Below, one piece after another: positions 1-37,350 of a DNA stretch of 37,350 nucleotides; within the stretch, counting starts at the first letter, position 1, and every line of letters begins with the position of its first letter. The stretch spans positions 4,091,354-4,128,703 of the forward strand of contig NZ_CH672413.1 of NCBI RefSeq assembly GCF_000152705.1, read 5' to 3'. The position numbers and the translations under genes are program-made. The DNA comes from Janibacter sp. HTCC2649 (lineage in GTDB: Bacteria; Actinomycetota; Actinomycetes; Actinomycetales; Dermatophilaceae). Below the pieces are notes generated by a model. That model saw nothing but the letters and a program-made list of their open reading frames with translations. It searched no databases and had not been told where the DNA came from.

Positions 1-60
1 TTCCGTCGGTACCGACGGAATGCGCAATCAGTGCCACGCCGCGACGGATTGCGCAATAAG
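1..60. promoter_or_regulatory. Palindrome and repeated operator-like motif downstream of the permease gene
   Basis: Positions 1-20 are a perfect 20-bp palindrome (TTCCGTCGGTACCGACGGAA). The 16-mer at 13-28 recurs with one mismatch at 42-57. TGCGCAATC (21-29) and GATTGCGCA (47-55) form a 9-bp inverted repeat. The block lies just past the 3' end of the minus-strand permease gene, so it may be a terminator for it, or a dimeric-regulator operator for a gene left of the window. There is no U-tract. The sequence symmetry is directly visible; the function is inferred. Confidence 0.5.
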
Positions 61-73
61 TCGGGGTGGGGGG

Positions 74-1465
74 TCAGGTGTCGATGCGGAGGGCTTCGAC
101 GGGGGCGACGGCGATCGCGCGCCGCGCCGGGCCCTGTGACGCCACGAGCACGAGGACCACGCCGGCGACGGCGATCCCTGCGAGGGCGCCGATCGGCAGC
201 CCCCAGACGATCCCGGGCGTGGGAGCGCCGACGAGCGACTGCGCGCCGAGCGTGCCGTAGACCAGGCCGAGGACGATCCCGAAGATCACCGCCGAGGCGG
301 ACAGCGCGACGGACTCCTTCGTGATCATCGTGCGCACCTGACGTCGGGTGAAGCCGAGCGAACGCAGCAGCCCGATCTCGCGGTGACGCTGGATGACCGT
401 GAGCGACATGGTGCTGACGAACCCGACGGCCGCGATGACCGCCGAGATCACGATGATGCAGATGAGGATCACCGACGTGACGGCGAGGGCCTGGTCGGCC
501 TGGGCCGCCTGCGACGGGTCCATCTCCCAGGAGTGCACCGACGCTCGCAGCGCCGACATGCCCGAGGCAAACGTCGTGACGAGCGTGACGCCGATGACGA
601 GCCCCATGGTGGACCGCGTCGTGCGCAGCGGGTCGAGCAGGGCGTTGCGCCGCGCGACCACGCTCGCGGGGTCCCGACCCAGCAGTCGGCTGAAGGCCGC
701 CACCACACCGGGGATGACGAACCGTGCTCCGATGAGGAAGCCCGTGCCTGATGCCGCCGCACCGAGGAAGGCCAGGACGAATCCGACCCCGGGGTTCGAC
801 TCACCGAGCACTGCTCCGAGGGCGAGCGCGAGGAGTCCGCCGATGATGCCGAGCCCGGCGAGGATGCTCCGGATGACGGAGGACCGGCGGGGCGTGGGGA
901 TGGGAGCCGATGAACCGGCCATGGCGCTCGCGGGGGAGACGCGCAGGACCACCCGGGAACCGAACCACCCGGCAATGGTCGCCGACGCCGTGATCGCCCC
1001 GAACGCTGTGAGCAGCTGCGGTTCGAACCAGGCGTATGCCGCGTCGGGCAGGGTCTCGCGTGCCACCAGGACCGCTCGGGTGAGGTGGGTGAGCGCCGTG
1101 CCGACGAGGATCCCGGTGAGTGCACCGAGCGCGCCGACCGTGGCGGTGCCCCTCATGACCGAGCTGCGGAGTTCGCGCCCGCGGGAGCCGAGGAGGCGGA
1201 GCAGGGCGATGTGGCGGAGCCGACCCGAGATGACGGTGTCGACGGCGCCGACGATGACGACGGCTCCGACGTAGAGCGCGATGAGGATGAACACGCCGGC
1301 GACGATGCCGAGGAAGAGGGCCTGAGCGCCGCCCGACTGCGTGCTCAAGGTCGACAGCAGCGACGACGTCATGATGAGCACGGCGGCATACGCTCCGCAC
1401 AACCCGGCCACGAGACCCACGGTGCCGAGCTCGCGCAGGCTGCCAAGGGTGAGGTTGCGTCTCAT
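74..1465 (-). CDS. FtsX-family ABC transporter permease
   Basis: Membrane subunit of an ABC exporter, 463 aa, working with the ATPase encoded immediately upstream. Two FtsX-type halves are visible. Each has several hydrophobic helices and the family's cytoplasmic coupling segment: RLRHIALLRLLGSRGREL near residue 82 and RHREIGLLRSLGFTRRQ near residue 355. The extracellular domain between helices is very short, unlike MacB-type permeases with a large periplasmic domain and unlike the ~800-aa versions common in actinobacteria. The start codon overlaps the ATPase stop (TCAT at 1462-1465 on the plus strand, i.e. ATGA), which implies translational coupling. A two-component system lies 1.3 kb away, so export of or resistance to an envelope-active compound is plausible. 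The substrate cannot be read from the sequence. Confidence 0.9.
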   Translation of the reverse strand: MRRNLTLGSLRELGTVGLVAGLCGAYAAVLIMTSSLLSTLSTQSGGAQALFLGIVAGVFILIALYVGAVVIVGAVDTVISGRLRHIALLRLLGSRGRELRSSVMRGTATVGALGALTGILVGTALTHLTRAVLVARETLPDAAYAWFEPQLLTAFGAITASATIAGWFGSRVVLRVSPASAMAGSSAPIPTPRRSSVIRSILAGLGIIGGLLALALGAVLGESNPGVGFVLAFLGAAASGTGFLIGARFVIPGVVAAFSRLLGRDPASVVARRNALLDPLRTTRSTMGLVIGVTLVTTFASGMSALRASVHSWEMDPSQAAQADQALAVTSVILICIIVISAVIAAVGFVSTMSLTVIQRHREIGLLRSLGFTRRQVRTMITKESVALSASAVIFGIVLGLVYGTLGAQSLVGAPTPGIVWGLPIGALAGIAVAGVVLVLVASQGPARRAIAVAPVEALRIDT

Positions 1466-2235
1466 GCGGCACCGACCTCGAAGCCGATGAGCAGGTCCGA
1501 GATCTGCTGTGGGGTGAGCGCGTCGTGGTCGCCCACGAGACGGCCGTCGGCGATGACGAGGATCCGGTCGGCGTAGGACGCGGCCACCGGGTCGTGGCTC
1601 ACCATGGCGATGGTCTGGCCGTACTCACGGGCGGCCGTCCGCAGCAAGGTGAGGACCTCGCGTGAGCTGCGCGAGTCGAGGTTGCCGGTCGGCTCGTCGG
1701 CGAAGATCACGGCCGGGCGGGAGGCGAGGGCGCGGGCAATGGCCACACGTTGCTGCTGCCCGCCGGAGAGCTCGCTCGGCCGGTGGGTGATGCGGTCGGC
1801 GAGGCCGAGCGTGCCGACGAGGTGGTCGATCCAGGCCCGCTGTTCGTCATCGATGCGCCGCCCCGCGAGCTCGAAGGGCAGGAGGATGTTCTCGTGCGCC
1901 GAGAGGGTCGGCACGAGGTTGAAGGCCTGGAAGATGAAGCCGACCTCGCTGCGGCGCAGGGTGGTGCGGGCGTCGTCCCCCAGGTGGGTCAGTGCGGAGC
2001 CGGCGAGCATGACCTCTCCGCTCGTCGCGTCGTCGAGTCCGGCCGCGACGTTCATGAAGGTCGACTTCCCCGAACCCGACGGACCCATGATCGCCGTGAA
2101 GCCCCCCCGGTGGATGTCGACGGTGACCTCGTCGAGGGCGGCCACCCTGCCGGTGCCCTCGCCATAGATCTTGGAGACCCGACGGAGTGAGACGACGGGC
2201 TGAGCTGCGCTGTGCTGCAACGTTTCTGAGTTCAT
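1462..2235 (-). CDS. ABC transporter ATP-binding protein (MacB/LolD-like)
   Basis: ATPase subunit of 257 aa that pairs with the FtsX-type permease. It shows Walker A GPSGSGKST, Q-loop region VGFIFQAFNLVPTLSA, signature LSGGQQQR, Walker B VIFADEPTGNLD and the H-switch in MVSHD. This set is typical of the lipoprotein-release / macrolide / peptide-export ATPases. I place the start at the ATG (MNSETLQHS) ending at 2235, although the frame stays open further upstream. A TAGCGT box ends 7 nt before this ATG, as in leaderless transcripts. The ATPase and permease form a two-gene operon with a 4-nt overlap. A CATAC-N10-GTATG inverted repeat is centred about 66 bp upstream of the start. Confidence 0.92.
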   Translation of the reverse strand: MNSETLQHSAAQPVVSLRRVSKIYGEGTGRVAALDEVTVDIHRGGFTAIMGPSGSGKSTFMNVAAGLDDATSGEVMLAGSALTHLGDDARTTLRRSEVGFIFQAFNLVPTLSAHENILLPFELAGRRIDDEQRAWIDHLVGTLGLADRITHRPSELSGGQQQRVAIARALASRPAVIFADEPTGNLDSRSSREVLTLLRTAAREYGQTIAMVSHDPVAASYADRILVIADGRLVGDHDALTPQQISDLLIGFEVGAA

Positions 2236-2242
2236 GGCTACG

Positions 2243-2248: not shown

Positions 2249-2291
2249 GGGATGCGCGGACCGCAGCACATCCGGCGCCGGGACCAACCGG

Positions 2292-2311
2292 CATACATCG
2301 TGGGGTGTATG
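2292..2311. promoter_or_regulatory. Candidate response-regulator site CATAC-N10-GTATG (site 1)
   Basis: GCATACA (2291-2297) and TGTATGC (2306-2312) form a 7-bp inverted repeat whose core is CATAC-N10-GTATG. It is centred about 66 bp upstream of the ATPase start on one side and about 37 bp upstream of the start at 2339 on the other. The same spaced motif occurs at 4633-4652 at an equivalent distance before the sensor kinase gene. Binding by the local NarL-type regulator is inferred. Each arm also belongs to the genome-frequent CGGCATAC word. Confidence 0.45.
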
Positions 2312-2326
2312 CCGCGCAGCGGAACG

Positions 2327-3420: not shown

Positions 3421-4577
3421 GCGGGACTGCCCGGGATGTGCGCGTCGACGATCCACCGGTCGCCCTCTCGTCCGGCCGCGAACGTGCCGCCAGCAACCGT
3501 GGTCCGCTCTGCCATGCCGACGAGCCCGTGCCCGCCCGAGGGTGGGTCGACCGCCGATCCGTTCACGTGGTTGGTCACGTGCAGACGGTAGCCGTCGGTC
3601 CAGTCGACGGCGACGTGGACGGGTGCCGAGAGGTCGCCATGCTTGAGCGCGTTGGTGAGGGACTCGCCGAGGAGCCGGTGGGCCGTGAGCGCGATGAGCG
3701 GGGACTCGTTGCGGGTGCCGGTCTCGGTGAGGTCGAGGGCCATCCCGGACGCACGCATCCGATCGACCAGCTCGGCCTGCTGCGCATAGCCGGGGGTGCT
3801 GGGCTGCAGCGCCGGGTCGCGGAGCTGCGCAACGATGGTGCGGAGGTCGGTGATTGCTGTGCGAGCCGTCTCGCCGATGACCTCGAGAGCACGTTCGGCG
3901 CCAGCAGGATTGTCCTGCAGCGCATATCGCGCACCATCACTCTGCGCCGCGACAACCGCCCAGGAGTGGGCGACGACATCGTGCATGTCGGCGGCGATGC
4001 GTCGGCGCTCCTGCTCGATGTCATAGAGTTCGGTGACTCGGCGTCGTTCGACGGCTTCGAGCTGGGCGTCGACCCGTGCCTGGATCGTTTGTCGGCTCTG
4101 CCACCGCAGGTAGCCCGCGACCCATCCACCGAAGACGAACAGCGCGGCGGTGGAGCCCAGCCCGATGGCCGTTGCCCAGCCGGCGAAACTGGCGATGTCG
4201 CCCGCGCCACGTAGCAACCCGTAGGTGGCCGCGCCAGCCACGGCGACGCCCGCCCCGACCAGCCCGAACTTGCGAACGCGAGCGTCCCGGTGAGATCCGA
4301 GCGTGAAGAAGCACACGGCATACGCCGCGTTGGCGAGGTAGGCGATGTCGGACCCGACCACCTGCGAGACGGCGCCGGCGAAAGCAAAGACCGACATGAC
4401 CTGCCACGACACGCGTCGGAACGCCAGGGCCACCGCAAGGAGCACGGTGGCGATGGCCGCACCCATGCCGAGGCTGACGTGGATGGCCAGCATGACGAGC
4501 CCGAAGAGGACGGCGCCGACGATGTCGAGGACCAGCTGCCGACGCGTCGCGCGCTGGTCACCCCACACATCGGTCAT
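3417..4577 (-). CDS. Sensor histidine kinase (HisKA_3 type)
   Basis: Membrane sensor kinase of 386 aa. The N-terminal 160 residues hold about five to six hydrophobic helices with very short loops, an intramembrane-sensing layout without a large extracytoplasmic domain. A coiled stretch leads to the HisKA_3 dimerisation region with H199 in RRRIAADMHDVVAHS. The ATPase domain has the N-box around E305/N309 (GESLTNALKHG) and the G-box GGHGLVGM (348-355). Together with the response regulator and the nearby FtsX-type exporter this resembles envelope-stress or antimicrobial-peptide sensing modules; that role is inferred. The start is supported by a TAGGCT box 6 nt upstream. Confidence 0.95.
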   Translation of the reverse strand: MTDVWGDQRATRRQLVLDIVGAVLFGLVMLAIHVSLGMGAAIATVLLAVALAFRRVSWQVMSVFAFAGAVSQVVGSDIAYLANAAYAVCFFTLGSHRDARVRKFGLVGAGVAVAGAATYGLLRGAGDIASFAGWATAIGLGSTAALFVFGGWVAGYLRWQSRQTIQARVDAQLEAVERRRVTELYDIEQERRRIAADMHDVVAHSWAVVAAQSDGARYALQDNPAGAERALEVIGETARTAITDLRTIVAQLRDPALQPSTPGYAQQAELVDRMRASGMALDLTETGTRNESPLIALTAHRLLGESLTNALKHGDLSAPVHVAVDWTDGYRLHVTNHVNGSAVDPPSGGHGLVGMAERTTVAGGTFAAGREGDRWIVDAHIPGSPA

Positions 4578-4589: not shown

Positions 4590-4632
4590 GGCAGACGGGG
4601 GAGGCTCCGTCGTCCCTCGCGCGACGGACCGG

Positions 4633-4652
4633 CATACCTCTGTAGAGGTATG
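4633..4652. promoter_or_regulatory. Candidate response-regulator site CATAC-N10-GTATG (site 2)
   Basis: CATACCTCT (4633-4641) and AGAGGTATG (4644-4652) form a perfect 9-bp inverted repeat with a 2-nt spacer. Outer arms and spacing match site 1 (2292-2311). The position relative to the kinase start suggests positive autoregulation of the two-component operon. Confidence 0.5.
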
Positions 4653-5638: not shown

Positions 5639-6502
5639 CTAGGCCTGATTGCGGAGGTACTGCTCCCAGGTGACCTTGGTGACCTGTGGTCCGTCGTCGG
5701 GGGCGTTGCCCGACAGGCCGTTGCGGCCTTCGTAGTACGCGCCGATCTGCTTCTGCGCGGACAGCGAGAGATCGGTGTCGTTGGTGGCGACGGCGTGGAT
5801 GTGCCAGGGCCAGTCGTCCTGGCTCGGGTTGCGCAGCCAGGCTGCGAAGCCGACGCGACGCAGTGCCGTGACGGCCGCGGTGCGCTGGGTGGTGGACAGC
5901 GCCTCGGCATCAAGGTCGGCGGTTCCACCACCGTCGTGGGTTCCGGCGGAGGTCGGGTCGACGTCGGGCGAGTAGGAGCCCTGCTCGACGACGAACGCCT
6001 TGCCGGCCAGCAGCCGCGCCTCGGCGAGCATCGCGACCGTGCGGGTGTTGAAGGGGAAGCCCTGAAACGTCGTCCGCGCACCTGGCGTGACCGGCCGAGT
6101 GACCGAGAACCGCTGTGCGCCAAGGGAAGTCAGTGATGCCTTGCCGGGCAGGCCGGTGGCACCCAGTCCGGTGTAGCCCAACGAACGCTGCCACGCGGCA
6201 TACGCCGTGCGGGTCACGCTGCCGAAGTGACCGTCGACGTACTGACTGTCCAGGAAGCCGCGCGCGACGAGCGCCTGCTCGACCAGGGTCACGCTCGGTC
6301 CGGCGCCCGAGGTGATGCCCGTGCCGGTCTTGACCGGGTCCCACTGAGCAGCCAGCAGCACCTTCTCCATGTCGATCGAGGGGAGCGCGGCGCTCGCGGG
6401 CCCGGCGCCGATGGTGGCCAACGCCGCGGCTCCCGAGCCGGCGAGGAACACCCTCCGGCCAAGTGCCAGTCGTGCGTTGTCAGCCCTCTTCATGTCCCCC
6501 AT
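5639..6502 (-). CDS. Tat-exported D-Ala-D-Ala carboxypeptidase-like protein (M15)
   Basis: Secreted 287-aa cell-wall protein. The N-terminus carries a twin-arginine signal (RRVFLAG, R16-R17) and a likely ASA cleavage site near residue 38. A peptidoglycan-binding-like helical segment (about 65-125; VEQALVARGFLDSQYVDGHFG then TRTAYAAWQ) precedes an M15-type metallopeptidase region. H189 and D196 keep the H-x6-D spacing of the SxHxxGxAxD motif, and WHIH (H234/H236) offers the last zinc ligand. Start: ATG ending at 6502, with AGGA 7 nt upstream; an in-frame ATG ending at 6493 is the alternative. It lies 50 nt upstream of the lysozyme-like gene on the same strand, so the two may be co-transcribed. 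Confidence 0.85.
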   Translation of the reverse strand: MGDMKRADNARLALGRRVFLAGSGAAALATIGAGPASAALPSIDMEKVLLAAQWDPVKTGTGITSGAGPSVTLVEQALVARGFLDSQYVDGHFGSVTRTAYAAWQRSLGYTGLGATGLPGKASLTSLGAQRFSVTRPVTPGARTTFQGFPFNTRTVAMLAEARLLAGKAFVVEQGSYSPDVDPTSAGTHDGGGTADLDAEALSTTQRTAAVTALRRVGFAAWLRNPSQDDWPWHIHAVATNDTDLSLSAQKQIGAYYEGRNGLSGNAPDDGPQVTKVTWEQYLRNQA

Positions 6503-6592: not shown

Positions 6593-7900
6593 GTGGATCG
6601 TGTGAGGTGGGGGACCGGACCTGTTGTGCTTCTCGCTGTCCTGGCGCTGAGCGGCTGCTCCGAGGTCAACAAGGGGTCGGCCAAGGGTGCAGACTTCGAA
6701 CGCGCACTCAAGGCGCGCCATGGCGCGCTGGTCGAGGACATCCATGTCGGTGCCCAGAATTCGCTGCCCTGGATGGGGACGTTCGACGCGACGGTGACGC
6801 TGCTGCCCACAGCGTCGATGGCCGATCTCGCCGCGGTCGAGAGCACCATCGCTGAGATCATCAAGGATCCCTCCGACTCAGCAGTGGTGTGGGCCAACGG
6901 AATTGAGATCTGTGCCGAGGGCGCCGGTCCTCGTGCGCAGCACCTCGCGTTGCGTGGTCAGTTGCTTGCGTCCTCGGCTTCCCTGGCGGGGCGTCTCGAG
7001 TGCGAGGACGGGTATGCCGGTGAGCTGGCAGACCTGTCCGCGGACATTCCTGTGGTCCAGTCCGCCGTCGCTGCGGACGCCTCCATCACGGACCTGCGGA
7101 TCGACGGTCGCATCAGGAAGCCCTCCGGCGAGGTCGACGGGCTGTGGCGCGAGCTGACTCCCCACGTCGCCGAAGCGCTGGGCGCAGTGACGCAGGAGGA
7201 CCTCAACTCGTTCGAGCTCCATGGCACTGACCTCAGCGTGAAGGTTCAGCCGGGCGTCGACGTGACGAAGCTGGGTGCCGACGTGAAGGACGTCGCACCG
7301 GACGTCGTCCTGACCGTGCTCCAGGGCGACGACGGTGCGTCGGGTGCCCCCGAAGCGGCCGCACTCCGCGCCGAACTGGGCCGACTGCCGGGTGTGCAGT
7401 CGGTGCGTTTCACGTCGGCCAAGCGGATTGTCGTCAGGGTGGCGACGCCAGCCGATGTCGCGCCGATGGTCGGTCGGGCTCGTGAACTGTCGTCGGCGGT
7501 GGGCTCGTTCCATCTCCACGTCACGACCCAGGCGAGCGACAACCCGCTGTGGACGGTTGACGCCGGTGCGGACTTCGAGGTCGCGGCGGATGCTGATCTG
7601 GCCCACGTCAAGGACTTCGCCGCCCTGGTGGGTTCGGACAAGATCTCGGCAGTGGGATGGCGCGAGGACCGGGGTCGTGCGGCGGGTGCCCCCATGGTGA
7701 CCATCACGGCGCCGGGGGGCGGGGACCTGAGGGACGTCCTGCCGATCGTCAAGGCCCACGTCCCCGACGGAGCGGTTCTCAACCTCCACCTCGGGGACAA
7801 GGACTACTACTTCGATGTGGCCTCGAAGCTCGACTCCACGGACGGGCAGGTGCGCGAGCTCCCGCGCACGTTCGTCGAGACGTGGAACTCCATCCTCTGA
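6593..7900 (+). CDS. Putative lipoprotein, function unknown
   Basis: A 435-aa protein I do not recognise. A short basic N-terminus and hydrophobic stretch end in the lipobox LSGC near residue 22, so it is likely lipid-anchored on the outer face of the membrane. The rest is soluble, acidic and rich in Val/Asp/Ala, with recurring alpha/beta-like segments of about 70-80 residues (around 30-100, 180-260, 260-340, 350-435) that may be degenerate repeats of one fold. The open frame extends upstream, but the lipobox fixes the start at GTG 6593 or GTG 6602. It diverges from the Tat-exported M15-like gene and lies 22 nt upstream of the secreted RNase gene. Confidence 0.8.
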   Translation: MDRVRWGTGPVVLLAVLALSGCSEVNKGSAKGADFERALKARHGALVEDIHVGAQNSLPWMGTFDATVTLLPTASMADLAAVESTIAEIIKDPSDSAVVWANGIEICAEGAGPRAQHLALRGQLLASSASLAGRLECEDGYAGELADLSADIPVVQSAVAADASITDLRIDGRIRKPSGEVDGLWRELTPHVAEALGAVTQEDLNSFELHGTDLSVKVQPGVDVTKLGADVKDVAPDVVLTVLQGDDGASGAPEAAALRAELGRLPGVQSVRFTSAKRIVVRVATPADVAPMVGRARELSSAVGSFHLHVTTQASDNPLWTVDAGADFEVAADADLAHVKDFAALVGSDKISAVGWREDRGRAAGAPMVTITAPGGGDLRDVLPIVKAHVPDGAVLNLHLGDKDYYFDVASKLDSTDGQVRELPRTFVETWNSIL

Positions 7901-7922: not shown

Positions 7923-8411
7923 ATGGCGCACGTGTCGAAACCCCTGACCGGAGCGCGCTCCTCCCTCAGCTGGCTGGCCCCGCTGCTCGTCATCGTGCTC
8001 GTCGTAGGGGTGTGGTGGTTGGCCAGTCGCGACGACTCGACCGGCTCCACGGGCTCGCCGGGCGCTCAGGCAACGGCGACCACGGGACCCAGCGGGACGG
8101 CATACCCGTCGAACACGCCTGACTCGGGACTGGACACGATCGCCGAGTCGAAGCTGCCCAAGGAGGCGAAGGCGACGCTGGCGCTGATCCGCGCGGGCGG
8201 TCCCTACAAGTACGACCAGGACGACAAGACCTTCCAGAACCGAGAGGGCATCCTGCCGAGCCAGAAGAAGGGCTACTACCGCGAATACACCGTGGTGACA
8301 CCGGGATCCGGCGACCGCGGTGCCCGTCGGATCATCGGTGGCCGCGACGGTGACCGGTATTGGACGGACGACCACTACGACAGCTTCCGGCAGATCCAGG
8401 AGGGGCAGTGA
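7923..8411 (+). CDS. Membrane-anchored guanyl-specific ribonuclease (barnase / RNase Sa family)
   Basis: A 162-aa RNase of the N1/T1/barnase family, closest in pattern to Streptomyces RNase Sa. The catalytic domain (about 75-162) has the family landmarks: IRAGGPYKYDQDD, FQNREGILP, the catalytic Glu in YREYTVVTPG, the Arg in ARRIIGG and the His in TDDHYDSF. It lacks the disulfide cysteines of RNase Sa. Ahead of it come one hydrophobic helix (APLLVIVLVVGVWWLA) with no clear cleavage site and a ~40-residue Ser/Thr/Gly/Pro-rich linker, so the enzyme may stay tethered outside the membrane. The start may instead be GTG 7932, which lies 7 nt after a CACAAT -10-like box. The next gene encodes its inhibitor. 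Confidence 0.93.
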   Translation: MAHVSKPLTGARSSLSWLAPLLVIVLVVGVWWLASRDDSTGSTGSPGAQATATTGPSGTAYPSNTPDSGLDTIAESKLPKEAKATLALIRAGGPYKYDQDDKTFQNREGILPSQKKGYYREYTVVTPGSGDRGARRIIGGRDGDRYWTDDHYDSFRQIQEGQ

Positions 8412-13804: not shown

Positions 13805-13880
13805 AGCGCTGGTGAGCGGACGGCATACCCGCCGTTCGTGAATTGATGCACGACAGCACGTGAGACGGCGTCTCGCCGCT

Positions 13881-21256: not shown

Positions 21257-21286
21257 GTGAACGGCATACGCAACCGTCGTTATCCT
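21257..21286 (+). promoter_or_regulatory. Putative proS promoter
   Basis: GTGAAC (21257-21262) and TATCCT (21281-21286) are separated by 18 bp. Transcription would start near 21293 and leave a ~30-nt leader with GGAG before the GTG start of proS. A CGGCATAC motif sits in the spacer. Confidence 0.4.
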
Positions 21287-28183: not shown

Positions 28184-28960
28184 TCACCATCTCCCGGAAC
28201 TGAGGACGATGAGGATCACGGTGAAGGCCACCTCGATGGCGGCCCCCATGACGTCGCCCGTCACCCCGCCGAAGACGCGTCGACACGTCCGAAGCAGGAT
28301 CCCCACGGCAACGGCGGCCAGGACGACCGCGACGACTCCCGCAGCAGGGCTGAGGCGTGAGGCCGCGACGGCCGCCGACAACAGCGCCGCCACGACGAGT
28401 CCGCCGAGCCCAGCCACCCACGTCGGCACGGAACCGGCGACAACGGCGCCGAGCCCGCCCGGGCGAGCGGACGGCATACCCACTCGGCAGGTGAGCAAGG
28501 TCGAGGCGCGCGAGGCGACCACGGCGACACCGGCGACCAGCCACCCCTGCGGGCGATCGACGATGGCGGTCAGCGCGGCCACCTGGGCGAGCAGGACAAG
28601 GAGGAGGGCAGCAACTCCCATGGGACCGACGTCGCCGCTGCGCATGACTTCGAGTGCGCGCTCACGGGTCCACCCCGCGCCGAGCCCGTCGACCGTGTCG
28701 GCCAGCCCGTCGAGGTGCATCGCCCGCGTCCCGGCCGCGATGACGGCCACGGCGAGGGCAGCGGTGAGAAGCGTCGGCAGAGTGGCCCAGTGGCCGAGCG
28801 CGACCACTGCACCGACTGCGACGGCGACGGGCAATGCGGCGACCGGCGCCAGAACCATCGCCCAACGCGCGTGTTCCCTCGTCGGGTCAGCGATCGTGCC
28901 GACGGGGACGACGGTGAGTGTCCCTACGGCGAGCCTGAGACCAGCAGTGCTGTCGTGCAA
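28184..28960 (-). CDS. cobS: Adenosylcobinamide-GDP ribazoletransferase (cobalamin synthase)
   Basis: A 258-aa membrane enzyme joining alpha-ribazole to adenosylcobinamide-GDP. LRLAVGTLTVVPVG begins the protein. MHLDGLADTVDGLGAG (about 81-96), with its acidic residues, is the metal-binding active site, followed by ERALEVMRSGDVGPMGV. GVTGDVMGAAIEV near the C-terminus is another family block. Five or more hydrophobic segments are seen. The only start giving full length is TTG ending at 28960, 6 nt after cobA, an unusual start that may lower its yield. Confidence 0.93.
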   Translation of the reverse strand: MHDSTAGLRLAVGTLTVVPVGTIADPTREHARWAMVLAPVAALPVAVAVGAVVALGHWATLPTLLTAALAVAVIAAGTRAMHLDGLADTVDGLGAGWTRERALEVMRSGDVGPMGVAALLLVLLAQVAALTAIVDRPQGWLVAGVAVVASRASTLLTCRVGMPSARPGGLGAVVAGSVPTWVAGLGGLVVAALLSAAVAASRLSPAAGVVAVVLAAVAVGILLRTCRRVFGGVTGDVMGAAIEVAFTVILIVLSSGRW

Positions 28961-28966: not shown

Positions 28967-29974
28967 TCAGCCCTCGAGGGCGGTCACGACGCGCCCGATG
29001 ACAGTGATCGCCGGGGGAGTGAGGTCCTCGGCGTCAGCGACCGACGCGATGTCCGCCAAGGTGCCGCGTGCGGATCGCTGGCTCGGCATGGCGCCATCAG
29101 CGATGCAGGCCGCGGGCGTCGACGGGTCCATGCCGTGCTCGATCAGTGTCTGCGAGATCTCGGCGAGCGCGGCCACGCCCATGAGGATGACGATGGTGAG
29201 GCCGCACTGCGCGAGGGCGGCCCAGTCGGCATCGTTGCGCTCGTCCTTGGGGCCGACGTGTCCGGAGACGACAACAAACCCCTGCGTCAGGCCTCGGTGG
29301 GTGAGCGGGATGCCGGCGAGGGCCGGGACGGCGACGGCCGACGAGACACCCGGGACGACGTCGACGGGTATGCCGTTCGCGACGCACGCGTTCCATTCCT
29401 CACCACCGCGCCCGAAGACATAGCTGTCGCCGCCCTTGAGCCGGACGACGTACTTGCCCGCGAGGGCGTGCTCGACGAGGAGGGCGTTGATCGACTCCTG
29501 CGGGGTGAAGGCGCCGCGCGGGATCTTGCCGACGTGGATGACCTCGACGTCGGAGCGTGCCTCGGCGAGTACCGACAGCGGGGCGAGTCGGTCGCAGACG
29601 AGGACGTCGGCCTCACGGACCGCGTGCAGGCCACCCACGGTGAGCAGGTCCACCGAACCGGGCCCTCCTCCGACGAGAGTGACGCGACCTGTGCCAGCTG
29701 TCTGCGGCGGCATGAGCTCGGCTGTGCTCCGCGTGCCCGGGTCGCGCAGGACGAGGTCGAAGTCGCCCGGAGCGGGATGGGCATCGACACTCACGAGACG
29801 GCGGCCGCTGAGGTCGTCGAGGGCGGCGCGAGTGGCGGCGTCGGTGATGTCCGCGGCGGCCACGGTGACGACCGCGCCCTGGTCGGTGAGCGCGTGCACG
29901 GTCTCGGCGATGCGTGAACCCGGACTCGTGATGAGGACGGTCGGGTTCGCAGTCGTCGGAAGGGTGAGACTCAT
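28967..29974 (-). CDS. cobA: Uroporphyrinogen-III C-methyltransferase with degenerate SirC/Met8-like N-terminus
   Basis: A 335-aa enzyme methylating uroporphyrinogen III at C2 and C7 to precorrin-2, the entry to corrinoids. The methyltransferase domain is 97-335: VTLVGGGPGSVDLLT, VCDRLAPLSVL, KIPRGAFTPQESINALLVE, RLKGGDSYVFGRGGEE, VVPGVSSAVAVPALAGIPLTHRG. The first ~95 residues form a Rossmann-like beta-alpha segment (TVLITSPGSRIAETVHALTDQGAVVTVAA) similar to the precorrin-2 dehydrogenase start in CysG/Met8, but too short and without an intact NAD motif or dimerisation and catalytic parts. Dehydrogenase activity is therefore unlikely here. Its start overlaps the cobB-cobC stop (ATGA). Confidence 0.95.
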   Translation of the reverse strand: MSLTLPTTANPTVLITSPGSRIAETVHALTDQGAVVTVAAADITDAATRAALDDLSGRRLVSVDAHPAPGDFDLVLRDPGTRSTAELMPPQTAGTGRVTLVGGGPGSVDLLTVGGLHAVREADVLVCDRLAPLSVLAEARSDVEVIHVGKIPRGAFTPQESINALLVEHALAGKYVVRLKGGDSYVFGRGGEEWNACVANGIPVDVVPGVSSAVAVPALAGIPLTHRGLTQGFVVVSGHVGPKDERNDADWAALAQCGLTIVILMGVAALAEISQTLIEHGMDPSTPAACIADGAMPSQRSARGTLADIASVADAEDLTPPAITVIGRVVTALEG

Positions 29975-32436
29975 GCGGTGCGCTCCTTCGAGGTCAGCAC
30001 AGTGGCGAGCTCGCGGAGCATGCCGTCAGTGGTCTGGGGGTCGCGCACGGCGATGCGGACCCACTGCGGGCCCAGCCCGGGGAAGGTGTCGCCGCGGCGC
30101 AGGGCATAGCCGCGCCCTCTCATGACCTCACGCACCCCGACGCCGACGTCCACGAGGACAAAGGACGTCTGGGACCTGATCGGGTCCAGGCCGAGCGCGT
30201 GAAGTCCAGCCAGCAGGTGCTCCCGCCAGCGGGTGGTGTCGGCGACAGCGGCCTCGGCCTCCGTGAGCGCCGGCCCCGTCGTGGTCGCCTCCATGACGGT
30301 CGCGGCCAGCGTGCTCACCGACCAGTGGGGCTGGTGGAGCGCCAGGTCGGCGATGACGGAAGGGGAGCCCACGGCATACCCGGCTCGTAGTCCAGCCAGA
30401 CCCCAGGTCTTGGTGAGAGAGCGCAGGACGAGGACACCCTCCATGTTGGCCGAGATGAGCGAATCCCCCTCTCCCGCAATGGTGTCCATGAAGGCCTCGT
30501 CGATGACGAGCAGGCGCCCCGGTCGTCGCAGAGACTCGAGGCCCGCGCGCGGGTGCAGCACGCCGGTGGGGTTGGTCGGGTTGCCGATGACGACGAGGTC
30601 GGCGTCTGGGGACACGAGTTCCGGCGTGAGCGTGAAGCCGTTGGCGGCGTCGAGAACGACCCGTCCGGGGTTGATGCCCGCGCGACGCAGTGCGGCCTCG
30701 GGCTCGGTGAACTGCGGATGCACGATGACCGGGTGCTTGGCGCGTGTCAGGTGCGCCAGGAGGACGAAGGCCTCCGCGGCGCCGCTCGTGGGAAGGACCA
30801 TGTCCTCGTCGACCCCGTGCCGGCGCGCGATCGCTCGGCGCGCGTTGCGGACATCCGGGTATGCCGCGAGGTCGCCGATGCTGTCGCGGAGCCTCTGCGC
30901 GAGCCAGGCGGGAGGCGTCGTGAGGCGCACGTTGACCGCCAGATCGACCAGGGCAGGGTCGGTCTCTGCGTCCCCGTGGTGCTCGAGCGGGTCGACCGGC
31001 TCGGCCTCGAACTGCGGGGAAGGTGTTGGCGAAATGCTGGAAAGGGTCGCCCAAGAACGGGATTCGCTGCCGTGGACGGCGCGGGCGAAGCTCATTGCCA
31101 GCTCGGGGTGGCCCGCCCAGTGGGTGTGGAGATAGGACGCGTGCACGGTCGCTGATCCCGTCCCTGCGGGGTCGAGCGACCAGCCTTCGGGAGCTCCATC
31201 GAGGAGCCAGGCGGCGTTGTCGCCTCGGCCCGGCGTGGTCTGGGTTCGGTGGAACTCGTGGCCGCGGACCCGCGTGCCCGCGGGGCCCAGCAGGGTGTCC
31301 TCGGGCGCGATGGCGGTGACGTAGCGCAGGGTGAGGCGAGGGTGCATCGCTGCCGTCGCCGGGACCGCGCCGACGAGCCCGTGTCCATCCACGGCCTGGG
31401 AGAGATAGAGCAGCCCGGCGCACTCGGCCACGGTCGGCACGCCGGACAGGACGGCGTCGCGCACGTCGGCCAGTAGGCGCTTGTTCGTGGAGAGTGTGGC
31501 CGCGTGGACCTCGGGGAAGCCACCGCCGAGATAGATGCCGTCCGTTCCCGTCGGCAGGGCCGTGTCGAGCGCCGGGTCGAAGGTCACCGGCTCGCACCCG
31601 AGTGCCCTCAGCTGCTCCTCGGTCTCGGCATAGCGGAAGGTGAACGCCCGGCCACCGGCCACGGCGACCCGGCGGGGTGCAGCCGTCGAGAGGGCGTCCG
31701 AGGTGACCGGAGTCCAGGCGGACGTGTCGAGATCCGGTGCGGCAGAGGCGATGTCAACGAGCGCATCGAGGTCGATGAACTCCGCTGTCTGCTCGGCCAG
31801 TCGATCCAGCGCCGCGGCCGCCTCGGGGCGCTCGGCGGCCGGCACCAGCCCCAGATGGCGTGACGGCGCACTCACCCCGGCATCGCGAGGCAGCACCCCC
31901 AACACCGGCATACCCAGCTGCTCGACACTGCGTCGCACCTCGTCGGCATGACGGGACGAACCGGCCTTGTTGAGGATGACCCCAGCCACGTGGACCCGGG
32001 GATCGAAGCCGCGCAGGCCATGCACAACGGCAGCGACCGTTCGAGCCGCCGACGAGATGTCGATGACGACGACGACCGGGCTGCTCGTGAGCGTCGCGAG
32101 ATGTGCCGTCGATGCCCATCCGTCACTGCCGAGGCGCCCGTCGAAGAGGCCCATGACGCCCTCAATGACGGTGAGGTCGGACGGAGCCGGGCTCCGGGCA
32201 CCGTGGACGAGCAGCGGCAGGACGCGGTCCTCACCCTGCAGCCACGGGTCGAGGTTGCGGCCGGGGCGTCCGGTCGCCAGCGCGTGATACCCCGGATCGA
32301 TGAAGTCCGGCCCGACCTTGGCACCGGCCACGACCCGACCAGCGCGCGTGAGGGCGGCCATGACACCGACCGCCACGGTCGTCTTGCCCTGACCCGATGC
32401 AGCGGCCGCGATGACGACCCGCGGGAGCTTCACCAC
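29971..32436 (-). CDS. cobB: Fusion: cobyrinate a,c-diamide synthase (CobB) + PLP-dependent CobC/CobD-like aminotransferase
   Basis: A single 821-aa frame with two enzymes. The first half (1-~460) is CobB: P-loop ASGQGKTT (13-20), VGPDFIDPGYH, VIEGVMGLFDG, and the class-I-like glutaminase domain with GGGFPEVHA, Cys339 (AECAGLLYLS) and GHEFHRT. It amidates the a and c side chains. A ~35-residue Pro/Glu-rich linker (about 465-498) follows. The second half (~500-821) is a fold-type-I PLP enzyme: SGAAEAFVLLAH, GNPTNPTGVLHPR, VIDEAF and Lys676 in LRSLTKTWGLAGLRAGYAVG, like L-threonine-phosphate decarboxylase/CobC, which supplies the aminopropanol. GTG ending at 32436 has AAGGG 6 nt upstream; GTG ending at 32433 is the alternative. 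Confidence 0.93.
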   Translation of the reverse strand: MVKLPRVVIAAAASGQGKTTVAVGVMAALTRAGRVVAGAKVGPDFIDPGYHALATGRPGRNLDPWLQGEDRVLPLLVHGARSPAPSDLTVIEGVMGLFDGRLGSDGWASTAHLATLTSSPVVVVIDISSAARTVAAVVHGLRGFDPRVHVAGVILNKAGSSRHADEVRRSVEQLGMPVLGVLPRDAGVSAPSRHLGLVPAAERPEAAAALDRLAEQTAEFIDLDALVDIASAAPDLDTSAWTPVTSDALSTAAPRRVAVAGGRAFTFRYAETEEQLRALGCEPVTFDPALDTALPTGTDGIYLGGGFPEVHAATLSTNKRLLADVRDAVLSGVPTVAECAGLLYLSQAVDGHGLVGAVPATAAMHPRLTLRYVTAIAPEDTLLGPAGTRVRGHEFHRTQTTPGRGDNAAWLLDGAPEGWSLDPAGTGSATVHASYLHTHWAGHPELAMSFARAVHGSESRSWATLSSISPTPSPQFEAEPVDPLEHHGDAETDPALVDLAVNVRLTTPPAWLAQRLRDSIGDLAAYPDVRNARRAIARRHGVDEDMVLPTSGAAEAFVLLAHLTRAKHPVIVHPQFTEPEAALRRAGINPGRVVLDAANGFTLTPELVSPDADLVVIGNPTNPTGVLHPRAGLESLRRPGRLLVIDEAFMDTIAGEGDSLISANMEGVLVLRSLTKTWGLAGLRAGYAVGSPSVIADLALHQPHWSVSTLAATVMEATTTGPALTEAEAAVADTTRWREHLLAGLHALGLDPIRSQTSFVLVDVGVGVREVMRGRGYALRRGDTFPGLGPQWVRIAVRDPQTTDGMLRELATVLTSKERTA

Positions 32437-33044: not shown

Positions 33045-35122
33045 CAGGCAGCCCGCCCGCCACGACCGGCGCGCCATTCGTCGCGTGCCGACGTGACCGA
33101 CTCGACGATCGCTCCCGCGGCCACCTCTGCGAGGGGGACGTGGGTCGCACCCATGCGGGCCGCGAGGTCGGCGGCCAGTCCCAGCCTGAATCGCCCTGTC
33201 TCACAGTCGATGACGACCGACTGATGTCCCGTGCGTCCCCACGCGCATGCGATGGTGCGCGAGCGTTCGAGGGCGTCGGGTCCTGCCGTCGCGCGTCCGT
33301 CGGTGACGACGACGAGCAGCGGTCGGCGCTTGGGGTCGCGCAGCTTCTCGCGGGCCAGGACCTTGGTCGCCATGAGCAGGCCCTCGGCAAGGGGAGTGCG
33401 CCCACCGTGGGCCAGGGTCGTGAGCGAACGTGCGGCCGCGTCGACGGATGAGGTCGGGTGCAGCGCGACCTCGGCGCCCTGCCCTCGGAACGTCACGAGC
33501 CCCACGCGGTCACGCCGCTGGTACGCATCGAGCAGCAGCGACAGCACGGCCGTCTTGACCTCTTCCATGCGGCGACGCGCACCCATCGACCCGGACGCAT
33601 CGACCGCGAGGAGAACGAGATTCGACTCCTGGCCTTGGGTGACCGCTGTGCGGAGGTCTCCGGGCAGCAGGACTAGCCGTCCGTATGCCGTCCCGCGCGT
33701 TCCGCGGTGACGCGCGGCTTCGGTGATGGTCGCCGGGAGGTGCAGTCGACCGCGGCCTGTTGTCGTGGAGCCGATGGTGTGACCGGTGGCGGTGAGGGCG
33801 CGGCTGCGGCGACCCGACTCGCCGGTGCCGACGCCGGTGAGGGTGAAGGCCCGAGCCCGGAACGGCGTCCCCGCCGCAGCGACGCCGACCGGAACCACGG
33901 CCGGGGCATCGCTGTCGGTGGCGGAGTTCCCTGGGTCGCCGTCGCTGGACTCGGGTGTCTGTGGGGTGTCGCCGGTTGCCCGGGACGGCTCGGGCTGAGC
34001 CTCGGGCCCCGACCCTTCTTGACCTATTGGTCGATTGTGGTCGTCCTCGTCCGAGCCCTGGGGGTCCTCGGGGCCGGGGTCGTCGGGGTCGGGGTCGTCG
34101 GGGCTGGGGTCGTCTGGCTCGTCACCCAGCAGGCGGTCGAGCAGGTCCTCGTCCAGGCCAGGGGCGTCGAACGGGTTGCGCCGACGACGGTGGGGCAGGG
34201 CGAAGATCGCCGCTGCGCGGATGTCCTCGCGGGTCACCGACAGTCGGCCGTGCCAGGCGGCGTGGGCCATCGCAGCACGCGCGGTGACGATGTCGGCGCG
34301 CATCCCGTCGACCTCGAACCCAGCGCAGACACGCGCGATCGTCGCCAACGACCGGTCGCTCAGCTCCACCTTTTCGACAGCGATCCGCGCAGCGGTGACG
34401 CGGTCCGCGAGGTCGCGCTGCGCGGCGGCATACCCGGCAGCGAAGGCGACTGGATCGGCGTCGGAGGCGAGTCGACGACGAACGACCTCGGCACGCAGCA
34501 ACGGATCCCGCGAAGCCGCGACCTCCACGGTCAGGCCGAAGCGGTCGAGGAGCTGCGGGCGGAGTTCGCCCTCCTCGGGGTTCATCGTGCCGACCAGCAC
34601 CAAACGCGCGGCGTGGCTGACCGAGACGCCGTCGCGTTCGACCGTGTTGCGGCCCATGGCGGCGGCGTCGAGCAGCAGGTCGACGAGGTGGTCGTGGAGG
34701 AGGTTGACCTCGTCGACGTAGAGGATTCCGCGGTGCGCCTCCGCCAGGAGCCCGGGCTGGAAGGCCGCCTCACCGGAACCGAGCGCCTTGCCGAGGTCGA
34801 GCGAGCCGATCACGCGGTCCTCGGTCGCGCCGACGGGAAGCTCCACGAGGCGTGCCGGCCGGGACGTCGTGGTGGTGGTCGCGTCATGGGGACCATCGGG
34901 GCACGTGGGGTCGGGGCGCACGGGGTCGCAGGCGAAGCGGCAGCCTTCGAGGACGTCGTGCGGGGGCAGGAGGTCGACGAGTCCGCGGACGATCGTCGAC
35001 TTCGCGGTGCCCTTCTCGCCGCGCACGAGCACGCCACCGATGGCGGGGGAGACCGTCGTGAGAATGAGGGCGAGGGAGAGATCGTCAGCCCCGACGACTG
35101 CGGTGAAGGGGTAGTGCGTCAC
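33044..35122 (-). CDS. ChlI/ChlD-type chelatase ATPase-VWA fusion, putative cobaltochelatase subunit
   Basis: A 692-aa protein joining the small and middle subunits of Mg/Co chelatases. The AAA+ part (1-~330) has Walker A GEKGTAKS (35-42), GSLDLGKALGSG, Walker B ILYVDEVNLL, and sensor VGTMNPEEGELRPQLLDRFGL. An acidic/Pro-rich linker (about 336-370) joins a C-terminal VWA domain with MIDAS residues D508-S510-S512 (DASGSMG), T576 and D608 (TDGRAT). It would power cobalt insertion with a CobN-like subunit that is not in this window. The GTG ending at 35122 is preceded by AAGGAG; longer N-termini would run into the riboswitch. The upstream neighbour is the cobalamin riboswitch. Confidence 0.93.
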   Translation of the reverse strand: MTHYPFTAVVGADDLSLALILTTVSPAIGGVLVRGEKGTAKSTIVRGLVDLLPPHDVLEGCRFACDPVRPDPTCPDGPHDATTTTTSRPARLVELPVGATEDRVIGSLDLGKALGSGEAAFQPGLLAEAHRGILYVDEVNLLHDHLVDLLLDAAAMGRNTVERDGVSVSHAARLVLVGTMNPEEGELRPQLLDRFGLTVEVAASRDPLLRAEVVRRRLASDADPVAFAAGYAAAQRDLADRVTAARIAVEKVELSDRSLATIARVCAGFEVDGMRADIVTARAAMAHAAWHGRLSVTREDIRAAAIFALPHRRRRNPFDAPGLDEDLLDRLLGDEPDDPSPDDPDPDDPGPEDPQGSDEDDHNRPIGQEGSGPEAQPEPSRATGDTPQTPESSDGDPGNSATDSDAPAVVPVGVAAAGTPFRARAFTLTGVGTGESGRRSRALTATGHTIGSTTTGRGRLHLPATITEAARHRGTRGTAYGRLVLLPGDLRTAVTQGQESNLVLLAVDASGSMGARRRMEEVKTAVLSLLLDAYQRRDRVGLVTFRGQGAEVALHPTSSVDAAARSLTTLAHGGRTPLAEGLLMATKVLAREKLRDPKRRPLLVVVTDGRATAGPDALERSRTIACAWGRTGHQSVVIDCETGRFRLGLAADLAARMGATHVPLAEVAAGAIVESVTSARDEWRAGRGGRAA

Positions 35123-35333: not shown

Positions 35334-35340
35334 GAGCGCC

Positions 35341-36555
35341 GTGATCGACGTCGTCGGGGTGCCAGCTGAGGGGCTCGAGAGTCTTCCGGCCGTGCAGCGT
35401 GAGCGGGTGGCTGCCGCCCGCATGCTCGTCAGCTCGCCTCGTCTGCTCGCTCTGGCGCCGATGGTTCAGGGGCAGGAGCGGCGTGTGTGGCCGTCGCCGA
35501 TGCTGCCAGCGCTGGAGGATTTCCTGGTTGATGTCGGCTCCGATGGTGTGGTCGTGCTGGCCACGGGGGACCCGCTCGTGTCGGGTGTCGGCTCGACGCT
35601 CATCCGCGTCTTGGGGGCCGACGCGGTGTGCGTGCACCCGGCGGTGTCGTCGGTCGCGCTGGCACGCGCCCGGATGGGGTGGCCCAGTGAGAGTGTCGAG
35701 GTGGTTTCGCTCGTCTCTCGATCCGTGTATGCCGTCCGCCGTCACCTTGCGCCGGGCGCTCGGGTCGTGGCGCTGTCGGCGAGTGGAGCCACACCGGTGG
35801 GGCTGGCCCGAGCGCTGGTTGAGCTGGGCCTGGGGGCTGCTGCGATGAGCGTGCTCGGCGACCTCGGCACGGTGCAGGAGAGCCGGTTCGACTGTGCCGC
35901 AGCGGAACTCGCGGCTGGGAGCGCTCCGGGAGCGGACGGCATACCGGCTCTCAACGTCGTGGCCTTCGAGGTCCCCGCGACCGCCGTGCTGTGGGGGTCC
36001 TCGCCGGGGCTGCCGGAGGAGGCGTTCGCCCACGACGGACAGATCACGAAGCGCGAGGTTCGGGCCCTGGCCATCGCTGCCCTGCGACCGATGGCCGGTC
36101 AGCGGCTGTGGGACCTCGGTGCAGGTTCTGGCTCGGTGTCGGTGGAGTGGTGCCTCGCGGCGCCGTGCACGACCGCCGTGGCCGTCGAACGCGATGGGGG
36201 GCGGGCGCAGCGGGTGGGTGAGAACGCCACGACCTTCGGCGTGCCCATCGCCGTCCAGATCGGCGACTCCCTCGACCTCATCGGCGAACTGCCTTCTCCT
36301 GACGCTGTGTTCATCGGTGGCGGGGCCAGCGAGTCACTGATCGACCAGGCGTGGGATGCGCTCGCACCGGGTGGGCGGCTCGTCGTCCACTGCGTCACCC
36401 TCGATACCGAGGCCCTCGTCGTCGCGGCCCACCAGCGCCTGGGCGGGGATCTCCGACGGGTGACCATCGAACGCGCCGAGGCTCTCGGCCGCCACCTGTC
36501 GTGGAAGCCGGCCCGCCCCATCGTCCAGTGGTCCGCCACCAAGGAAAGCTCATGA
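35341..36555 (+). CDS. cobL: Precorrin-6Y C5,15-methyltransferase (decarboxylating), CbiE-CbiT fusion
   Basis: A 404-aa bifunctional enzyme methylating precorrin ring carbons 5 and 15 and decarboxylating the acetate side chain at C12. The CbiE part (1-~200) has VVVLATGDPLVSGVGSTL and VHPAVSSVALARARMGWP. The CbiT part (~210-404) has the SAM motif LWDLGAGSGSVSVEW (about 255-269), FIGGGASESLIDQAWDALAPGGRLVVHCVT and a C-terminal strand. I chose GTG 35341 because it lies 7 nt after TACAGT; GTG 35323 and 35332 are in-frame alternatives. Its stop overlaps cobM (ATGA). Confidence 0.94.
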   Translation: MIDVVGVPAEGLESLPAVQRERVAAARMLVSSPRLLALAPMVQGQERRVWPSPMLPALEDFLVDVGSDGVVVLATGDPLVSGVGSTLIRVLGADAVCVHPAVSSVALARARMGWPSESVEVVSLVSRSVYAVRRHLAPGARVVALSASGATPVGLARALVELGLGAAAMSVLGDLGTVQESRFDCAAAELAAGSAPGADGIPALNVVAFEVPATAVLWGSSPGLPEEAFAHDGQITKREVRALAIAALRPMAGQRLWDLGAGSGSVSVEWCLAAPCTTAVAVERDGGRAQRVGENATTFGVPIAVQIGDSLDLIGELPSPDAVFIGGGASESLIDQAWDALAPGGRLVVHCVTLDTEALVVAAHQRLGGDLRRVTIERAEALGRHLSWKPARPIVQWSATKESS

Positions 36556-37295
36556 CCGTTCACTTCATCGGCGCCGGTCCCGGCGCTGCGGACCTGCTCA
36601 CCCTGCGCGCCGTCAGGTTGCTCGGCGAGGCTCCCGTGTGTCTCTATGCCGGGACCTACCTCGACGCAGAGGTGCTCTCGCACTGTCCGGACGATGCCGA
36701 GCTCATCGACACCCAGAACATCGACCTCGACACGATCACCGCGCACCTCGTCGAGGCCCACGAGGCCGGCAAGGACGTCGCCCGGCTGTGCTCCGGCGAC
36801 CCGTCGGTCTATTCGGCGATTGCGGAGCAGACCCGCCGGCTCGACCGCGCCGGCGTGCCGTGGGACGTCACGCCGGGCGTGCCCGCGTATGCCGCCACTG
36901 CCGCCATCATCGGCCGTGAGCTGACCGTCCCCGAGGTGGCGCAGACCGTCGTCCTGACCCGCGCGCAGCGCGACTCGACGTCATTGCCGCCGGGCGAGCA
37001 GCTCGCGACCTATGCCGCGACGAAGGCGACCTTGGTCCTGCACCTGGCCATCCGGCATACCCGTCGTCTGGCAGCGGAGCTGGCCGAGCACTACGGCGCG
37101 AACTGCCCTGTCGTCGTGGGCTCCCAGGTCACCCAGCCCGACGAGCTCATCCTGCGCGCCACCCTCGCTGACATCGCCGACAAGGTCGAGGAGGCGGGGC
37201 TTCGCCAGGCCGCCGTCATCATCGTCGGGTGGGCGTTGGAGGCGGAGGACTTCGTCGAGAGCCACCTCTACGGAACCCGGATCACTCGACCCTGA
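36552..37295 (+). CDS. cobM: Precorrin-4 C11-methyltransferase
   Basis: A 247-aa SAM-dependent corrinoid methyltransferase acting at C11. FIGAGPGAADLLTLRAVRLL is the N-terminal SAM-binding strand-loop, CLYAGTYLDAEVL follows, ARLCSGDPSVYSAIAEQ and VTPGVPAYAATAAIIGRELTVPEV are CobM blocks, and RAQRDSTSLPPGEQL precedes the second domain. The length fits the family. GGAAAG lies 4-5 nt before the ATG, which overlaps the cobL stop by 4 nt, so the pair is translationally coupled. An arm of the 26-kb hairpin repeat lies 16 nt past its stop. Confidence 0.96.
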   Translation: MTVHFIGAGPGAADLLTLRAVRLLGEAPVCLYAGTYLDAEVLSHCPDDAELIDTQNIDLDTITAHLVEAHEAGKDVARLCSGDPSVYSAIAEQTRRLDRAGVPWDVTPGVPAYAATAAIIGRELTVPEVAQTVVLTRAQRDSTSLPPGEQLATYAATKATLVLHLAIRHTRRLAAELAEHYGANCPVVVGSQVTQPDELILRATLADIADKVEEAGLRQAAVIIVGWALEAEDFVESHLYGTRITRP

Positions 37296-37311
37296 CGTCG
37301 AGGCGTTTCGT

Positions 37312-37331
37312 CTTCGTGCCCCGCACGGACA
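37312..37331 (+). repeat. Arm of the cobK/cobD-type hairpin repeat at the window edge
   Basis: CTTCGTGCCCCGCACGGACA is identical to 20 bp of the stem in the 26-kb array, but is followed by different sequence (ACTCGCTGG). It lies 16 nt after the cobM stop. The second arm, if present, is beyond the window. It indicates a dispersed hairpin family at gene 3' ends. Confidence 0.85.
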
Positions 37332-37350
37332 ACTCGCTGGCGCTCGTTGT

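Follow-up and report, generated by a model that had tools for sequence, protein, structure and literature searches.

A probable DNA uptake sequence and its dialects in Janibacter sp. HTCC2649 and related actinobacteria

Introduction

The best-described uptake sequences are those of two proteobacterial families, in which the uptake signal sequences (USS) and DNA uptake sequences (DUS) occur about once per kb, show no orientation bias, are regularly spaced, form inverted pairs, prefer non-coding DNA and have a strong consensus, with AT-rich flanks in USS (PMC1626085; this and the other papers are cited from excerpts of their text). The same source contrasts this strong consensus with the relaxed sites of regulatory proteins. 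USS and DUS are strictly conserved and absent from acquired genes (PMC2397512), and the DUS of Neisseriaceae come in dialects, sometimes two in one genome (PMC3630211). Among actinobacteria, the competent Micrococcus luteus has comEA, comEC and tad clusters and requires Flp pili for transformation (PMC6370729). Here we describe the 8-mer CGGCATAC, which is repeated throughout a stretch of 37,350 nucleotides of Janibacter sp. HTCC2649 (contig NZ_CH672413.1, positions 4,091,354 to 4,128,703, forward strand; the window) and probably forms the centre of a site that spans about 30 bp and resembles a DNA uptake sequence.

No paper on an uptake sequence in actinobacteria was found, going by titles and the openings of abstracts, in the open literature searched, a scope that leaves most subscription papers and all preprints outside; this fits the statement in the first-pass annotation of the window that none was known there. 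In the open full text searched, the letters of CGGCATAC turned up in a single paper, on Ralstonia typing, and the excerpted text of a paper on abundant octamers (PMC2843746) holds nothing on them.

Results

Abundance and consensus of the word

The window contains 35 exact copies of CGGCATAC (18 on the + and 17 on the − strand), where base composition predicts 1.35, and 35 of its 37 GCATAC words (19+/18−) are extended to the 8-mer. These counts confirm the strong over-representation reported in the first-pass annotation, which had also proposed a genome-wide count. The source genome (G000; 4,235,068 bases, with the window at C1:4091354-4128703) carries 2982 copies, 1496+ and 1486−, vs 59 (24+35) of the reversed word, which amounts to one per 1.42 kb or 0.70 per kb. 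A 437-kb sample, composed of 20 evenly placed 20-kb stretches of this genome and the window, holds 316 copies vs 5.9–16.2 predicted by Markov models of orders 0–3. Synonymous-codon shuffles within genes (n = 20) yielded a mean of 23.8 and a maximum of 29 copies, vs 253 coding copies in the same analysis (248 by a stricter rule); codon usage accounts for about a tenth of the coding copies. From the Markov models and the shuffles together, we conclude that the excess is real and made by neither codon usage nor composition, and the full explanation by dipeptide and codon usage that had been raised at the outset does not hold. The fifth-order Markov model, which had been suggested as a refuting null, predicts 195.6 copies, within a factor of 1.6 of the count. 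This null seems to us unfair, since 316 of the sample's 340 GCATAC words sit inside the 8-mer, and such high orders restate the word through its own 6-mers.

The consensus of CGGCATAC is strong. Perfect copies in the sample (316) exceed all 24 one-mismatch words summed (272), vs 2 perfect and 96 one-mismatch copies in a control of 120 kb from three genomes lacking the word. All six reading frames are occupied, unequally: 102 copies read TAT-GCC, 68 GCA-TAC, 39 GGC-ATA, 22 ATG-CCG, 11 CGG-CAT and 6 GTA-TGC, and 41 of the 78 ATA codons of the sample fall inside the word. The first-pass annotation had noted that the word is kept whatever the frame, had proposed the check on ATA codons and had suggested that something acts on DNA and not on protein, a view with which most of the sequence-based tests agree.

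Distribution among relatives

We surveyed 147 relatives of G000, 89 of them in family f1 and 58 in other families, together with 394 genomes sampled across the class, including 8 members of f1. CGGCATAC is bimodal in f1, with 939–4724 copies in 51/89 genomes and 7–293 in the other 38/89, and counts outside f1 (58 genomes) stay at or below 167. In the class-wide sample it is dense in f1 members only, the highest other count being 386 in 7.5 Mb. Among 80 named loci no longer than about 21 kb, six hold 5–17 copies (Knoellia flava 17, Pedococcus bigeumensis 17, Arsenicicoccus cauae 10, Terrabacter 8, and Ornithinimicrobium 8 and 5), and the other 74 hold 0–2. Because the word-dense named loci belong there, we take f1 to be the Dermatophilaceae/Intrasporangiaceae group; by protein identity the source genome is close to Knoellia. 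Words with a relaxed third position were also seen alongside CGGCATAC: CGTCATAC, with 22 copies in 40 kb of G034 (L055-L056), and CGCCATAC, with 10–12 copies each in G034 (L055-L056), G012 (L049-L050) and G042 (L057-L058).

Sister and unrelated words

De novo word counting in genomes low in CGGCATAC pointed to other words of this type, and we label the four dialects A (CGGCATAC), B (CGGCATCC), C (CGGCGTAC) and J (CGAAGGGG); their counts are given for whole genomes and both strands. B reaches 3949 copies in G033, 3816 and 3838 in genus g17, and 4491 and 4128 in another family, f19; it is weak in G009 (1336) and in G108 of f19 (1548), and the remaining genomes have 1038 or fewer. Genus g44 is mixed, with 2195 and 2099 copies of B together with 1217 and 1189 of A. 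C reaches 3903 in G047 and 2618, 2366, 2216, 2111, 1463, 1359 and 1125 in seven others; elsewhere it has at most 1214, a count reached in the 7.2-Mb genome G135. The assignment of C is weak for G061, G075 and G026, whose density is equalled by G126 and G141 of another family, G061 and G075 being the weakest cases. J, a word unrelated to CGGCATAC, has 3180, 2589, 2201 and 1813 copies in the Janibacter-like genera g37 and g38, and 34–396 in all others of the 147. Among named loci it occurs 22 times in 21 kb of Janibacter terrae and 12 times in 11 kb of J. hoylei; J. massiliensis has 2 copies in 21 kb and 171 in the genome (G056). By thresholds set by eye, one or more of the four dialects are present in 67 of the 89 f1 genomes.

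A tree was built with FastTree from the dxr, rseP-like and ispG proteins of 43 taxa (1321 columns; 4 of 47 taxa, in which the set of three genes was incomplete, were left out). It places A in most parts of f1, J nested among A genomes and C in three places, so that the dialect appears to have switched repeatedly. Within the Terrabacter group the branching order of B and A has a support of 0.08, and several other nodes are weak.

CGGCGTAC was also considered as a dialect of Kribbella and rejected: its density there is probably a matter of composition, because the control CGCCGTAC is about as dense (59 vs 72, four loci), whereas in G047 and G031 together CGGCGTAC has 52 copies vs 11 of the control. 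Separately, AGGCATCC and GGCATCCG are strongly raised in L067 of G108 (12 and 19 in 20 kb), perhaps as a variant of B in f19; GCCGATGC has 21 copies in 20 kb of L076 (G097) vs 4 expected, a possible further word in family f10; and further words top the count lists of the low genomes G016, G048 and G097.

Conservation in place and exchange of words

The window was aligned to relatives, and sites were counted where alignable. In seven A genomes the window sites are kept at 30/34, 11/13, 10/16, 9/12, 7/16, 5/8 and 5/9 positions, on a background of 20–30% identity for all 8-mers; the 30/34 case is a species with 83% identical aligned DNA. In genomes using another word none is kept (0/7 in G009, weak B; 0/4 in G033, B; 0/4 in G047, C), an outcome of 0/15 with a chance of 0.02 at background. 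In this comparison with related genera, of a kind that the first-pass annotation had called for, retention follows dialect. B to B, 5/8 sites are kept, and J to J 8/13; C to C is mixed, with 8/11 kept in one pair. Judging by these alignments, most of the species compared that share the word retain its copies in place, at the level of DNA.

The congeners G032 and G075 (genus g25) use A and C, respectively. None of 10 alignable A sites is kept in G075 and 4 read exactly CGGCGTAC, a single change found in 2.1% of 1922 control words (chance of 4/10, 4e-5); in the reverse direction, of 8 C sites of G075, 4 read CGGCATAC and 2 CGGCGTAC in G032. Therefore, in this pair at least, a site can stay where it is and change its word. 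The same 10 A sites face substitutions at 8 and gaps at 2, and the replacements at lost window sites are mostly substitutions. Because most sites face substitutions, a simple mobile micro-repeat, which the first-pass annotation had listed as an option, is unlikely.

The word is scarce in the two acquired islands examined, compared with 0.67–0.70 per kb genome-wide. The metal-resistance island L004 of the source genome (G000:C1:205001-225000) has 2 copies of CGGCATAC in 20 kb, and an apparent integrative element in G003 has 4 in about 49 kb vs about 33 expected from the genome mean, if it is one inserted element. Genes of L004, named by eye, are DsbA-like, cation-efflux, copper-ATPase and multicopper-oxidase-like. 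Site density is also low over about C1:149-240 kb of G000, with three + strand sites in 91 kb.

Orientation, spacing and flanks

Orientation shows no departure from even along 21 stretches with 316 sites (heterogeneity p 0.98), and the best two-arm split reaches 54% vs a null median of 56%; the near equality of the two orientations noticed in the window thus extends to the genome. Gaps between copies are more even than random, with 100/273 at 800–1600 bp vs 74 expected (p 0.0015) and too few short (p 0.024) and long ones (p 0.015). Pairs less than 100 bp apart are inverted in 21 of 22 cases, and several of those outside genes form long hairpins that resemble terminators (e.g., L011:15729/15750 and L018:10593/10615).

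Gene calls were made with a home-made GC3 filter, which missed the open reading frame (ORF) at window positions 5639-6745, so densities outside genes are approximate. On these calls, 248 copies in the sample of the source genome fall within genes (0.66/kb), 63 fall between them (1.03/kb) and 5 overlap a gene boundary. Non-coding and coding densities per kb in other sets are 1.07/0.85 and 0.68/0.59 for A, 2.13/0.83 and 1.31/1.42 for B, and 0.55/0.66 for C.

The flanks of coding copies, corrected for codon phase, are enriched in A at −11 (37% vs 12%, p 3e-35), in A at −1 (44% vs 21%, with T at 2% vs 19%, p 6e-22) and in C at +9 (60% vs 38%, p 3e-11), three positions spaced about one helical turn, with a surplus of T at +12 to +16 and +19. 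Sites outside genes follow the same trend. Exact GAGCGGRCGGCATACCCG is found at 4/63 sites outside genes vs 0/248 in genes, and its part up to the core at 9/63 vs 5/248. We read this pattern as the footprint of a predicted protein that would read about 30 bp. For CGAAGGGG in Janibacter-like genera (L118, L136, L039, L040), the flanks have G at −2 in 76% and G at +8 in 66%, and by the same gene calls this word is more than twice as dense outside genes.

Candidate uptake machinery

In the source genome comEA adjoins comEC, and Tad genes are present. Counts of ComEC, the type IVa motor PilT, T2SSE/TadA, ComEA and the DUF4244 Flp-like pilin were tried as correlates and rejected, as none separates word-bearing from wordless genomes. 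A T2SSE count of 2 or fewer occurs in 5/22 wordless vs 1/67 word-bearing genomes (p 0.003, for a split chosen after seeing the data), the word-bearing exception being G038, which is 75% complete; this paucity is a hint only. PilT pieces below the cut-off were found in G013. Two wordless genomes show comEA that is perhaps damaged, by an in-frame TAG in G017 (C5:80161-81036) and by pieces lying in different open frames in G022 (C1:1681167-1681821).

The DUF4244 pilin gene is split in G003 into parts 161 kb apart (C1:680895-680963 and C1:842354-842452; L222, L224), and likewise in G001 (C78, halves 73 kb apart) and G041 (C412/C745). A gene resembling serine recombinases, named by eye from its sequence, lies near one G003 junction. 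Elements insert into competence genes elsewhere (comK, comM), and the split gene of G003 resembles such an insertion. In the word-bearing G001 and G003, the split may reflect either a recent loss or a pilin that is not needed.

Sites in the window

All 35 sites are exact matches. The first two, at 1034..1041 (−) and 1384..1391 (+), lie in called genes. Inverted pairs are formed by 2289..2296 (+) with 2307..2314 (−) and, within dxr, by 10193..10200 (−) with 10216..10223 (+). Further along the window, 12485..12492 (−) lies in a gene that we take to be rseP-like from its place between dxr and ispG, and 12660..12667 (−) in ispG (GcpE). Outside called genes are 4630..4637 (+), 13821..13828 (+), with the long match GAGCGGACGGCATACCCG, 17739..17746 (+), with the long match GAGCGGGCGGCATACCCG, and 6196..6203 (+), which lies inside the missed ORF. 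The site at 21262..21269 (+) is upstream of proS and that at 22013..22020 (−) in it, and 29368..29375 (−) and 35937..35944 (+) use an ATA codon. The remaining + sites are 4316..4323, 8098..8105, 9319..9326, 23415..23422, 28472..28479, 30372..30379, 31906..31913, 34426..34433 and 37053..37060, and the remaining − sites are 7012..7019, 14132..14139, 17277..17284, 18625..18632, 19286..19293, 24927..24934, 30859..30866, 33683..33690, 35727..35734 and 36887..36894. The coordinates given in the first-pass annotation were right within 0–3 bases; five were corrected, from 17740, 29371, 31909, 35938 and 37055 to 17739, 29368, 31906, 35937 and 37053. Elsewhere in the window, overlapping ORFs at 26050-26760 repeat the same peptide stretches and are probably an intergenic repeat array.

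Discussion

On sequence grounds, the genome carries the signature of a DNA uptake sequence; the pattern matches the published features of USS and DUS nearly point by point, the variable preference for non-coding DNA apart, and we consider it probable that CGGCATAC works like one. This was the first of four options in the first-pass annotation, and most sequence tests (density, orientation, spacing, dialects, conservation and flanks) support it; two of its other options, a nucleoid-protein site and a methylation target, explain fewer facts. The site would be bound by a DNA receptor on the cell surface, most likely a Flp/Tad pilin or pseudopilin, and fragments carrying the site would enter by way of ComEA/ComEC and recombine with the chromosome. 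Repeated uptake bias would then accumulate and maintain the word by molecular drive, and a shift in receptor specificity would let the whole genome drift to a new dialect. The likely machine, in our analysis, is the Flp/Tad pilus together with ComEA and ComEC. A broader proposition seems to us evenly balanced between right and wrong: that self-recognising uptake exists in a Gram-positive lineage, independent of Proteobacteria and through Flp/Tad rather than type IVa pili; that a single family uses four or more dialects, including one based on an unrelated word; that receptor shifts rewrote thousands of sites per genome several times; and that mobile elements retaliate through insertions in the pilin gene.

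Several observations weigh against an uptake sequence. The literature searched holds no uptake or transformation data for these species, and no receptor candidate stood out. ComEC is found in 82/88 and ComEA in 139/147 genomes, wordless ones included, and PilT is over the cut-off in 1/54 f1 genomes searched (G032) and in 16/88 genomes overall. The word persists in G001 and G003 despite their split Flp-like pilin gene, and 22/89 f1 genomes have none of the four words above the thresholds set by eye. Conservation has its exceptions: A in G032 vs A in G059 is kept at only 1/7 sites (24% background) and C in G047 vs G083 at only 2/13 (23% background). Likewise, none of the 15 window sites reads the sister word in G009, G033 or G047, and between G046 (A) and G033 (B) in-place exchange was seen at 0/7 A sites and 1/13 B sites. 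The flank pattern, clear in the source genus, is weaker in other genera, and the word is denser in non-coding DNA in some genome sets but not in others, by gene calls that miss some genes.

One rival is a chromosome-organising or nucleoid-associated protein that recognises the word, with selection on chromosome structure keeping the sites. Site-level conservation, phased flanks of ~30 bp, even spacing and depletion in new DNA would all fit a binding site of this kind. However, the word has been replaced genome-wide several times within this family, in Janibacter-like genera by an unrelated one, and if there is no drive this would need thousands of selected changes; there is no strand pattern; and perfect copies outnumber all one-mismatch copies, unlike the relaxed sites of regulatory proteins (PMC1626085). 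We regard this explanation as unlikely.

Chi, KOPS and HIP1 are short words over-represented genome-wide; Chi and KOPS are strongly strand-oriented, and HIP1 is palindromic. CGGCATAC as the target or by-product of a DNA methyltransferase, or as a HIP1-like word, is highly improbable, judged from the word, its flanks and its pairs: the short fixed word with its exact core would suit it, and HIP1 shows that words can pile up in a lineage, but CGGCATAC, unlike HIP1, is not its own reverse complement, and a methylation target would not be expected to show ~30-bp flanks or inverted pairs. A signal of the Chi or KOPS type, acting in recombination or DNA translocation, would likewise be a short, non-palindromic, over-represented word that varies between lineages, yet CGGCATAC has no orientation bias along the chromosome arms. 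This reading is contradicted because no bias appears in the 21 stretches, none of which departs from equal orientation beyond chance (p 0.98; two-arm skew 0.54 vs null 0.56), and it is hardly credible. Codon usage, dipeptide usage or mutation bias can be dismissed almost with certainty: frames are unequal with Tyr-Ala favoured and the fifth-order model recovers 195.6/316 by counting the word's own 6-mers, but synonymous shuffles yield only 23.8/253, the word is also present outside called genes and congeners differ in it.

With the uptake sequence as the preferred explanation, the kind of system is a known one; if uptake is confirmed, the novelty would lie in the phylum of the host, in the pilus probably used, in the unrelated word of Janibacter and in the repeated switches of dialect. 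If true, this would be a third lineage with an uptake sequence, in Actinobacteria mostly without the usual pilus motor; it would point to more than one origin of sequence-selective DNA uptake, and natural transformation would be predicted for a group of bacteria from soil and wastewater. The 67 genomes with switched, mixed or single words and the 22 without make both the spread of the word, by drive or by selection, and the receptor directly testable.

Among the described systems, as far as the excerpts cited here reach, the Flp/Tad competence of M. luteus offers comparable machinery: the source genome has the same kinds of genes (comEA, comEC and tad), which also occur in wordless genomes, and unlike here no uptake sequence is named for M. 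luteus in the excerpted text of PMC6370729. The USS of Pasteurellaceae are alike in having a core with flanks, a T-rich 3′ side, more regular spacing than random and two related core types in one family (PMC1626085); they share no common core with CGGCATAC, whose T-rich stretch is weak and whose flank information lies mostly at −11 and −1. The DUS of Neisseriaceae, which have the minor pilin ComP as receptor, differ in word and host phylum, the present case being known from sequence alone, and in their motor, since type IVa PilT, which drives the known DUS and USS systems, is nearly absent from the f1 genomes searched. In other respects the two run parallel: about one exact copy per kb without orientation bias (PMC1626085); inverted pairs at terminators, matched here by putative terminator-like hairpins; depletion in acquired DNA and conservation in place (PMC2397512), with G032/G059 and G047/G083 as exceptions here; and dialects that differ by about a base, with two in one genome, as A and B in g44 (PMC3630211).

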